DNA of 64,000 nucleotides from Fimbriimonas ginsengisoli Gsoil 348. Its GTDB lineage: Bacteria > Armatimonadota > Fimbriimonadia > Fimbriimonadales > Fimbriimonadaceae. Below, one piece after another: positions 58,565 through 64,000 of this stretch (within the stretch, counting starts at the first letter, position 1; each line of letters opens with the position of its first letter). The stretch is taken from contig NZ_CP007139.1 in assembly GCF_000724625.1 (NCBI RefSeq), positions 868,001-932,000 on the forward strand, read 5' to 3'. A program made the translations under genes and the position numbers. The notes beneath the pieces are model-generated. The model searched no databases and was not told where the DNA came from. It saw only the letters and a program-made list of their open reading frames with translations.

Positions 58565-58611
58565 AGGCTGCCATCGCCACTTGTAGACCAGCCTCCCCTA
58601 CGGCAAAGCCG

Positions 58612-58716
58612 TGTAGACGCAGGTTGGCTCGTACCTGCGGACAGCCCCCATCGATCCGCATGTTGGGTCAATACGCGAAACTCACTCGCGCAGGTACGAG
58701 CCAACCTGCATCTACA
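58612..58716. repeat. 28-bp near-perfect inverted repeat upstream of nadA
   Basis: The arms 58612-58639 and 58689-58716 are complementary except at one position; the core word is GCAGGTTGGCTCGTACCTGC. The loop of 49 bases has no coding potential. The arms each hold a further internal palindrome (GCAGGT/ACCTGC). Confidence 0.8.
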
Positions 58717-58765
58717 ACGCTTCGCGTTAAAGGGAAACGCTTTCGCACCGGTACGAACCATCCTA

Positions 58766-58796
58766 TTGAACACCATCCGGAGGAAATGCGTAGAAT
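58766..58796 (+). promoter_or_regulatory. Putative nadA promoter
   Basis: TTGAAC (58766-58771), 19 bases, TAGAAT (58791-58796). Transcription would start near 58803, only a few bases before the RNA fold at 58806-58849. Confidence 0.45.
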
Positions 58797-58805
58797 AGAG
58801 ACGGA

Positions 58806-58849
58806 GGCAGTTACAACATCCCCGTCGGAGAACCCCGACTGTAACCGCC
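58806..58849 (+). promoter_or_regulatory. Candidate NAD+-I (nadA-motif) riboswitch aptamer
   Basis: P1 is formed by GGC-A-GUUAC (58806-58814) and GUAAC-C-GCC (58841-58849). A nine-base bulge AACAUCCCC (58815-58823) follows on the 5' side only. P2 is GUCGG (58824-58828) with CCGAC (58835-58839), closed by a six-base loop, and one U (58840) joins P2 back to P1. From memory, the crystallised ADP-binding domain of the NAD+-I riboswitch has the same plan: P1, bulge AACAACCCC, P2 starting GU and ending AC, a single U, P1. The gene behind it is nadA, the known target. The P2 loop is shorter than in the crystallised RNA, and a second aptamer copy is not seen; a GGGC-CUCG/CGAG-GCCC hairpin lies just before the ribosome site instead. 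Confidence 0.6.
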
Positions 58850-58886
58850 GCCAAGGGCACTCGCGACGAGGCCCGTCAAGGAAAAT

Positions 58887-59987
58887 ATGTACCAGGCACC
58901 TCTCCCGAAGGAGTACGCCGACCTCTCGCCAGAAGAGGCCGATGCAAGGATCGAAGCCGCCAAGCGGACGCTGGGCAACCGACTGGTCATTTTAGGCCAC
59001 CACTATCAACGCGACGGGATCATCAAGCACGCCGACTACCGCGGCGACAGCTACAAGCTGGCCAAAGACGCGAACCTCTGCCCTGACGCCGAGTTCATCG
59101 TCTTCTGCGGCGTGCACTTCATGGCCGAAAGCGCGGACATCCTGACTCCCGACCACCAGCACGTCATCCTGCCGAATATGGCGGCCGGATGCTCGATGGC
59201 CGATATGGCGAGCCTGTTCCAGGTGCGCAACTGCTGGAAGCAGATCGAGGAAGTTTTGGGCGCGAACGGCCCCCGGGTCGTCCCGGTTACGTACATCAAC
59301 TCCGCGGCCAACCTCAAGGCATTCGTCGGTGAGAGGGGCGGCACGGTTTGCACCTCGACCAACGCGCCGACCGCGGTGAAGTGGGCGTTGGAGCAGGGCG
59401 AGAAGGTGCTCTTCTTCCCGGACCAACACCTGGGACGCAATACCGGCGTTAAGCTCGGGTACGACCCGGACAAGGACATGATCGTTTGGGACCCGTTCCA
59501 GCCGTACGGCGGAAACAGTCCCGAGCGAATCCGCGAAGCGACCTTCATTCTTTGGAAGGGGCATTGCTCGGTACACAAACGGTTCACGGTGGAGCAGATC
59601 GAAGAAGCCCGCCAGACTCATCCCGGCGTCACCGTATTGGTTCACCCGGAATGCCCGCTCGAAGTGGTCGAAGCCGCCGATCTGAACGGCTCGACCGAAT
59701 ACATCATCAAGCAGGTGGAAGCGTCACCGCCTGGTTCGGTTTGGGCGATCGGCACCGAGATCAACCTCGTGAGCCGCCTGGCCAACGAGAACCCGGACAA
59801 AACGATCTTCTGTCTGGACCCCCAAGTTTGCCCGTGCTCGACGATGTACCGGATCCACCCCAGCTTCCTCGCCTGGACCCTGGAGAATCTCGTCGCCGGC
59901 AACGTCGTCAACGAGGTGATCGTGCCACCGAAGGTCAAGTATTTCGCCAAGATGGCGTTGGACCGGATGTTGACGGTCTGTGCGTAG
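58887..59987 (+). CDS. nadA: Quinolinate synthase
   Basis: The 366-residue enzyme condenses iminoaspartate with dihydroxyacetone phosphate to quinolinate in de novo NAD synthesis, using a [4Fe-4S] cluster. Cluster cysteines are in FCGVHFMAES, VHPECPLEV and QVCPCSTMYRIHP; other family motifs are LGHHYQRDGI, NSAANLKAF, CTSTNAP and FPDQHLGRNT. AAGGA lies four bases before the ATG. It is monocistronic, with a candidate NAD-sensing leader. nadB and nadC are not in the window. Confidence 0.96.
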   Translation: MYQAPLPKEYADLSPEEADARIEAAKRTLGNRLVILGHHYQRDGIIKHADYRGDSYKLAKDANLCPDAEFIVFCGVHFMAESADILTPDHQHVILPNMAAGCSMADMASLFQVRNCWKQIEEVLGANGPRVVPVTYINSAANLKAFVGERGGTVCTSTNAPTAVKWALEQGEKVLFFPDQHLGRNTGVKLGYDPDKDMIVWDPFQPYGGNSPERIREATFILWKGHCSVHKRFTVEQIEEARQTHPGVTVLVHPECPLEVVEAADLNGSTEYIIKQVEASPPGSVWAIGTEINLVSRLANENPDKTIFCLDPQVCPCSTMYRIHPSFLAWTLENLVAGNVVNEVIVPPKVKYFAKMALDRMLTVCA

Positions 59988-60006
59988 TCTGGAGCCCCAA
60001 CTGATC

Positions 60007-60272
60007 TGGCACCCCTTCAGGGTGCCAGGGAACTCCGAACCTGGTCCCCGGGGTCTTCGACCACCGGGCTAACTTCCGACGATCCCTCCGGGATCGATGA
60101 GAACTGTTCGGCCCTCGCTTCGCAGTAGGGATATCGTGGGGGACTGATGCAAGAGGTCGAAGATCTGCGTCCCGGAACCTGATCCCGGAGGGATCTTTTG
60201 AAATTAGCCCGGTGGTCGCTCCGGCGACCCCGGGGTTAGCGGCGCCTCCTCTCCGCACCCTGAAGGGGTGCC
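60007..60272. repeat. REP pair in inverted arrangement (BIME-like)
   Basis: The outer words TGGCACCCCTTCAGGGTGCC (60007-) and its complement (60254-60272) bracket two inner units, CCCCGGGGTCTTCGACCACCGGGCTAA... and its inverted copy. GATCCCTCCGGGATC-type hairpins lie between. The whole 266 bp is one large imperfect inverted repeat. It fills most of the gap between nadA and uvrB. Confidence 0.8.
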
Positions 60273-60312
60273 AGAATCCCCGCGTAGCCCCACCGGAGGC
60301 ACTAGTATATAA

Positions 60313-63282: not shown

Positions 63283-64000
63283 TTGGGATTGAAAGTACTT
63301 AGCGCGGTCCCCGGCCCTACCAGCGTCGGACCGATTATCCGGCAGTTCTGCGGCCGTGGTGAAGGGGTGGTTACCGCGTTTTCGGACTCCGCGCTGCCGG
63401 TCTGCAAGCGGTTCGTTCAGGAGGACGACGCGGTCGAGGTGCTCGCCTTGGGCGAGGTGGTTTCCCGATTCCTGAGAATGTGCGGCGAGAGCGCCCAGCC
63501 GCTATCCCAAGCTGGGCAGGTGGAAGCCGCCATTGCTCGCGCCTGCCTAGAACTTCCCGCGGAGTCGCCGTTCTCGCGAACGGCGCGGTATCCGGGTCTG
63601 CATAAGGCGCTCAATCGGACCCTGAAAGAGCTGCACGAGTGGGAGATCGACCGCGATGAGATGCTGGATCTTGCGTCCGTCGCCACTCCCCGCCTCTCCG
63701 CCAAGCTCCAGTCGCTGGCGGAGATCGACAAGGAAGTCGATTCGGTGATGTTGGCGCTCGGACGCCAGAGCCACTCGGCCCAATTGCGGGCATGCTTCGA
63801 TTCCCTGCCGGAGCGGGACGGAAGCTTCGATCGGCTGCTGATTCTCGCCGGGTCGGAAGAGTCGCCGTTGCGGCTGCGCTGGATCCAGTGGGCGGTGGAC
63901 CAGGGAACGGATATCACGCTCATCGTGGAGCGTCACGCCGCCGATGCGCCGATATTTGCGGGCTCTCGCCGAACGTTGGAAGCGCTTGGCTTTCCCGGCA
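63283..64000 (+). CDS. Probable AddB-like nuclease/helicase-family protein, N-terminal part
   Basis: A frame of 239 residues opens at a TTG at 63283 (GGGAGAGGG lies seven bases upstream) and runs off the window. Its sequence (GPIIRQFCGRGEGVVTAFSD; QVEAAIARACLELPAESPFSRTARYPGL; LNRTLKELHEWEID) resembles N-terminal domains of PD-(D/E)XK nuclease-family proteins of the AddB type. No Walker A motif is visible in this part. The function would be double-strand-break end processing if the call is right. It follows uvrB on the same strand but beyond an opposite-strand gene. Confidence 0.45.
   Translation, partial: MGLKVLSAVPGPTSVGPIIRQFCGRGEGVVTAFSDSALPVCKRFVQEDDAVEVLALGEVVSRFLRMCGESAQPLSQAGQVEAAIARACLELPAESPFSRTARYPGLHKALNRTLKELHEWEIDRDEMLDLASVATPRLSAKLQSLAEIDKEVDSVMLALGRQSHSAQLRACFDSLPERDGSFDRLLILAGSEESPLRLRWIQWAVDQGTDITLIVERHAADAPIFAGSRRTLEALGFPG

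Follow-up and report, generated by a model that had tools for sequence, protein, structure and literature searches.

A single-domain variant of the nadA-motif RNA upstream of nadA in Armatimonadota

Introduction

NAD+-I riboswitches (the nadA motif) have been described as rare, as confined to Acidobacteria, where 101 representatives are counted (PMC7749635), and as always built from two aptamers (PMC9481103). The full-length RNA binds one ligand and accepts ADP and ATP at least as well as NAD+ (PMC10702441). In the crystal structure of domain 1, the C6–G47 pair contacts ADP (PMC7297122). The literature is divided on the role of domain 2: ligand binding by the isolated acidobacterial domain II was undetectable by ITC (PMC10702441), while the results of another group, as quoted in that paper, place binding by domain 2 in the millimolar range (3.4 mM for ADP; PMC7708056). 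A search of the literature on Fimbriimonas or Armatimonadetes found no report of such an NAD riboswitch.

Here, we describe an RNA element from Fimbriimonas ginsengisoli Gsoil 348 that combines a defined, covarying fold and a near-invariant core with a single copy and a near-exclusive association with nadA. It lies in a stretch of 64 000 nucleotides, referred to below as the window, to which all coordinates refer unless stated otherwise. The host belongs to the Fimbriimonadales, phylum Armatimonadota, and thus lies outside Acidobacteria, as the initial annotation of the window had supposed.

Structure and genomic context

The features of the locus, with the evidence for each in parentheses, are as follows.

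58767–58796, forward strand: promoter-like site, TGAACA, 18 nt, TAGAAT (consensus scan; predicted transcript start at about 58803)
58806–58815, forward strand: 5' strand of P1, GGCAGUUACA (minimum-free-energy fold, alignment of relatives, covariation)
58816–58823, forward strand: bulge of 8 nt, ACAUCCCC, the ACANCCCC of the nadA motif (Rfam match; near-invariant in 44 sequences)
58824–58839, forward strand: P1a hairpin of 5 bp, GUCGG, AGAACC loop, CCGAC (fold, covariation, comparison with acidobacterial domains)
58840–58849, forward strand: 3' strand of P1, UGUAACCGCC (minimum-free-energy fold, alignment of relatives, covariation)
58855–58874, forward strand: second hairpin, GGGC-A-CUCG-CGA-CGAG-GCCC, directly 5' of the ribosome site (fold)
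58878–58882, forward strand: Shine–Dalgarno-like AAGGA, outside P1 and the second hairpin (sequence)
58887–59987, forward strand: nadA, quinolinate synthase, 366 amino acids (open reading frame; PF02445, E = 6.3e-97 at 58947–59972, genome coordinates G000:C1:926947–927972)

The whole element (58806–58849, forward strand) ends 37 nt 5' of the nadA start. P1 pairs 58806–58815 with 58840–58849, with a single A–C mismatch, and P1a pairs 58824–58828 with 58835–58839; neither a GYG internal loop nor a P1b was found in P1a by sequence and fold comparison. The minimum-free-energy structure is this P1/bulge/P1a fold, with a stability z-score of -5.1 against 200 shuffled sequences. The initial annotation had rightly put the RNA directly 5' of nadA, an assignment now secured by the start codon at 58887 and the PF02445 match (E = 6e-97), and its location and helices in the order P1, bulge, P2, P1 agree with the present model. 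Its nine-base bulge (AACAUCCCC) and single U do not: the bulge has 8 nt, because the columns of A58815 and U58840 are A–U in 44 of 44 relatives and close P1. Among the P1a loops of the relatives, a UNNAAC-type hexaloop is frequent (GUCCCG-UNNAAC-CGGGAC), to which the AGAACC of the window is similar; it is possible that this loop makes a tertiary contact in place of GYG.

The -10-like TAGAAT occupies 58791–58796 and P1 begins about 10 nt later; the predicted start falls about 3 nt 5' of P1, and the 5'-terminal place of the element in the transcript is itself a prediction, taken from the promoter assignment. In relatives, a -10-like box lies 5–26 nt 5' of P1 in nearly all motif-bearing leaders, often so close that the RNA would start a few nucleotides 5' of P1, which excludes an upstream domain if the promoters are real.

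On the 3' side, AAGGA begins 28 nt beyond the end of P1, whereas the P1 of acidobacterial domain 2 contains ribosome-site bases. The second hairpin, offered in the initial annotation as a possible expression platform, shows no pairing with the Shine–Dalgarno bases in the fold prediction. Counterparts of this hairpin occur in many relatives with different sequences, and the mean z-score of the linkers is about -1. It was considered as a candidate domain 2 and rejected, as it has no ACANCCCC and no conserved sequence and leaves the ribosome-site bases outside. No intrinsic terminator was found on the coding strand. The distance from P1 to the start codon is 27–97 nt in the family of the window, often with a second hairpin in between; in families f3 and f19 the Shine–Dalgarno sequence mostly follows P1 by 5–10 nt and the start codon by 15–26 nt. 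Several leaders of relatives have no clear Shine–Dalgarno sequence. In several f3 genomes, a GCC-like stretch 5' of P1 can pair with GGC just 5' of the ribosome site, possibly as an outer helix.

A -10-like box 3–18 nt 5' of the nadA start codon is present in 12 of 33 motif-free relatives and in one of 27 with the motif, suggesting that several motif-free relatives (such a box is frequent in L036, L045, L048, L063, L087, L093, L094, L099 and others) probably make a leaderless nadA mRNA. The presence of the element tracks that of a 5' UTR.

The gene is also flanked by repeats. Directly 5' of the nadA promoter (58595–58735) lies one member of a large interspersed repeat family; it measures about 140 bp, and its inverted ends are imperfect, their 37-nt arms being 89% complementary. 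A genome search lists 105 matches to it, about 30 of them near full length. Nested inverted repeats 3' of nadA (60005–60275), with perfect 21-nt outer arms (60005–60025 and 60255–60275) and 38-nt inner arms (60058–60095 and 60181–60218), are perhaps another repeat element.

Conservation and distribution

A search with the Rfam NAD+-I model (RF03013, nadA), as the initial annotation had proposed, gave a match to 58809–58846 over the full model length with 34.7 bits (E = 1.4e-5 for a 2.7 kb query against 4227 Rfam families), below the gathering score of 37.5 bits; the list of a gathering-level Rfam scan of the window contains 16S rRNA only and not the nadA element. The published representatives behind the model are acidobacterial. 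The match is the only one in the genome (one contig, 5.23 Mb). Four further nadA leaders in the same family match below threshold, and none of the 113 genomes of the order reaches the gathering score; that the order-wide search found only five of 113 reflects the low scores of compact forms. Model R2, trained on other families only with that of the window left out, ranked the window site first in the 5.2 Mb genome with 40.3 bits (E = 3.9e-7), and the next site scored 20.2 bits. A weak R2 match in the window at 63701–63761 (reverse strand; 21.7 bits, bulge ACAUCACC) is probably due to chance.

Within the order (113 genomes), nadA was located and the leaders were retrieved and scanned. An unbiased descriptor fixing only ACANCCCC and the two helices, with flanking bases left free, matched 35 of 98 nadA leaders. 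Dinucleotide shuffles gave 0.15 matches and the reverse strand gave none. Although the descriptor requires neither, CA precedes the bulge and UG follows P1a in all 35 matches. The first P1a pair, also unrequired, is G–C in the same 35 and in all 44 sequences of alignment A1 (see below), as is the penultimate P1 pair C–G; both pairs belong to the ADP pocket of NAD+-I, and the invariant C–G corresponds to the ADP-contacting C6–G47 of domain 1. A wider descriptor extended the set to 47 leaders, not counting L026 and L096, which matched poorly, and element-bearing sequences span five families of the order.

Alignment A1 holds the 44 sequences with structure, selected for at least five of ten P1 pairs and for CA/UG, so that some of its invariance is a selection effect of which the unbiased scan is free. 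Of its cells, 92.5% are paired. Double-change cells number 179, against 64 in shuffles. The covariation among relatives that had been sought is present, since 12 of the 15 pairs of P1 and P1a are changed on both sides and the covariation score is 0.67, compared with 0.06–0.16 when the partners are slid by 1–3 columns. The invariant pairs (C9–G43, A10–U42 and G19–C41) all flank the bulge. Chance resemblance is ruled out by the stability z-score, the covariation and the excess of unbiased matches over shuffles.

Model R1 matched 61 of 291 Armatimonadota genomes, with at most one strong site per genome: 49 of the 113 in the order, ten of one other genus (family f19) and one each in f13 and f10. 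The element lies at nadA in 60 of the 61, the f10 match being the exception. A weak match in genome G124 (L173) is not at nadA. A scan of named genomes with the pattern ACAACATCCCCGTC-N4–34-GACTGT (20 bases plus a gap of 4–34 nt) returned 25 loci, of which 15 are from Armatimonadota, every one at nadA. The other ten (Bacteroidales/Rikenellaceae, Clostridia, Terriglobales, Anaerolineales and Desulfuromonadaceae) were set aside as chance matches because they lie away from nadA and their P1 is mostly poor. In the phyla of three of these, R1 matched one of 350 genomes (Anaerolineales; not at nadA), six of 347 (Terriglobales; two canonical tandem loci, the rest not at nadA where readable) and none of 297 (Desulfuromonadaceae). 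No compact nadA-linked form was confirmed in these three phyla, for sampled genomes under strict filters, a setting in which such scans do not prove absence elsewhere.

The element is not tied to one kind of NadA. The protein of family f3 is about 31% identical to the type found in the family of the window and has about 32 extra N-terminal residues, yet the same RNA element lies upstream of its gene (L006–L021 and L025). This sharing indicates that the element is tied to NadA synthesis and not to one gene lineage. Between the NadA of Acidobacteria and that of the window, the identity is about 55%.

Comparison with acidobacterial NAD+-I

RF03013 matched 103 of 150 sampled Terriglobales genomes, with two tandem matches in each of the 103; the Armatimonadota have one motif domain per nadA locus, and no second copy of the motif was found in the nadA leader of the window. 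A 7 bp P1a with an opposite GYG is present in 30 of 30 acidobacterial first domains and in two of 59 Armatimonadota elements, and P1a plus its loop measures 30–52 nt in acidobacterial domain 1 versus 12–23 nt in Armatimonadota. The two exceptions are the near-identical L003 and L004 (about 1498–1548), which have a longer P1a arm and GUG exactly seven positions from the bulge, with five of seven pairs; they are possibly intermediate between the compact and domain-1 forms. In the 30 acidobacterial second domains that were read, P1 is nearly fixed (UGCUUUCA/UGAAGGCGG) and holds ribosome-site bases. R1 also detects acidobacterial domains, second domains included, and the acidobacterial and Armatimonadota models each match some of the other's sequences, weakly.

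The kinship to the nadA motif proposed in the initial annotation is therefore upheld by the RF03013 match, the ACANCCCC bulge and the invariant flanking pairs. Its identification of the RNA simply as NAD+-I is not supported, since the tandem second domain is missing. Nor is its assignment to the ADP-binding domain-1 plan, as the 7 bp P1a, GYG and P1b are missing and the element is domain-2-like in those respects. The alternative that it had offered, a related variant, describes the single domain without GYG and P1b well. Since features that define NAD+-I are missing, the element was classed as a single-domain nadA-motif variant and not as a member of that class.

Functional implications

That the element is a genuine structured RNA of the leader, and akin to the nadA motif, we regard as almost certain. 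On balance, we favour the reading that it is a stand-alone, compact, domain-2-like relative of NAD+-I, a cis-regulatory element at the head of the nadA mRNA that probably responds to NAD+, or to a different nucleotide containing ADP, by repressing NadA synthesis. Sensing of an adenine nucleotide, be it NAD+ or another, seems fairly likely. By inference from the NAD+-I family, the bulge would bind the ADP part of an ADP-containing nucleotide, most likely NAD+; the ligand-bound, stiffened stem would make it harder for 30S to load at the ribosome site close by; and plentiful NAD+ would lower NadA synthesis by translational repression. The 30S step is the least certain in the window because the second hairpin sits between the element and the Shine–Dalgarno sequence. 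Against this reading, P1 is predicted to be stable without ligand and, in the window, leaves the ribosome site uncovered; the element also lacks the GYG contact, which completes the ADP pocket in domain 1.

A working lone element on the domain-2 plan is unexpected, because domain II in isolation binds ligand either not detectably or in the millimolar range (PMC10702441). Binding may be weak but sufficient at millimolar NAD+, the pocket may be completed in some other way or the ligand may be a different one. It is almost as likely as not that a lone domain-2-type RNA does the sensing of NAD+ (or of another adenine nucleotide) with neither domain 1 nor GYG. The tandem form of Acidobacteria would then have been elaborated later or have arisen separately, in either case from an older bulge common to both. 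The element makes it easy to ask what one half of NAD+-I can do alone. By keeping one domain-2-like unit, under strong selection, upstream of nadA genes of two very different subtypes, the phylum provides a natural experiment on domain 2, and the shortest leaders, at about 75–85 nt, are easy to make and probe.

Among the alternatives, the one that survives best, if at rather long odds, is a distinct riboswitch class that uses the same bulge for another ligand or with another binding mode, for example through an RNA dimer or through pairing of ribosome-site bases with the C-rich bulge, where they would stand in for GYG. The poor binding of NAD+ by domain-2-type folds alone (PMC10702441) fits such a class, as does the strict conservation of the C4 run despite the loss of GYG and the tandem partner; the nadA association and identical core, however, make NAD+ the simplest ligand. 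For the pairing version, covariation is uninformative because both partners are invariant, and the leaders that have no clear Shine–Dalgarno sequence count against it.

Short stems with an invariant bulge are common in protein-binding RNA sites, and a site for NadA or another regulator, with no metabolite involved, would account for this architecture. We consider it improbable, since the occurrence of the element under two divergent NadA types speaks against autoregulation by the NadA protein and the core equals the crystallized nucleotide-binding bulge (PMC7297122).

Slightly less probable still is an ordinary full NAD+-I riboswitch in a second phylum, with domain 1 binding the ADP part and domain 2 acting as the platform. 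The RF03013 similarity, the identical bulge and the nadA association all suit this explanation, but it is largely refuted by the missing second ACANCCCC domain: each locus carries one domain, a start about 3 nt 5' of P1 leaves no upstream room, all 103 motif-positive Terriglobales have two matches and the 7 bp P1a with GYG that is universal in the acidobacterial first domains read is nearly lacking in Armatimonadota. A mere 5'-end-stabilizing or ribosome-standby hairpin, although in keeping with the stability and predicted 5'-end location, is hardly credible, as a generic hairpin does not require that an 8-nt bulge and the pairs on either side of it be invariant.

Comparison with known systems

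Of the known systems, domain 2 of NAD+-I comes closest to the element in plan. Both have P1, the ACANCCCC bulge and a P1a that begins with G–C, have no GYG loop and lie directly 5' of nadA. However, the acidobacterial form comes after domain 1, whereas the Armatimonadota element stands alone with a P1 that is freely variable in sequence and ends 5' of the ribosome site. With domain 1 the element shares the bulge, the penultimate C–G, the closing A–U pair and the first P1a G–C, but not the 7 bp P1a, the opposite GYG or P1b. The ubiB-associated RNA (PMC7297122) is also a variant of the nadA motif; its 5' domain resembles domain 1 and is joined by a second stem without interruption, and it is neither single nor located at nadA. 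The NAD+-II riboswitch (pnuC motif) resembles the element in its proposed ligand and differs in its fold, which is unrelated and includes a pseudoknot and a triple helix (PMC10085692), and in binding the nicotinamide side (PMC7749635). A precedent for a single-aptamer form of a normally tandem class comes from singlet glycine riboswitches (PMC9481103), although these are a different RNA with a different ligand and are often assisted by a ghost aptamer.
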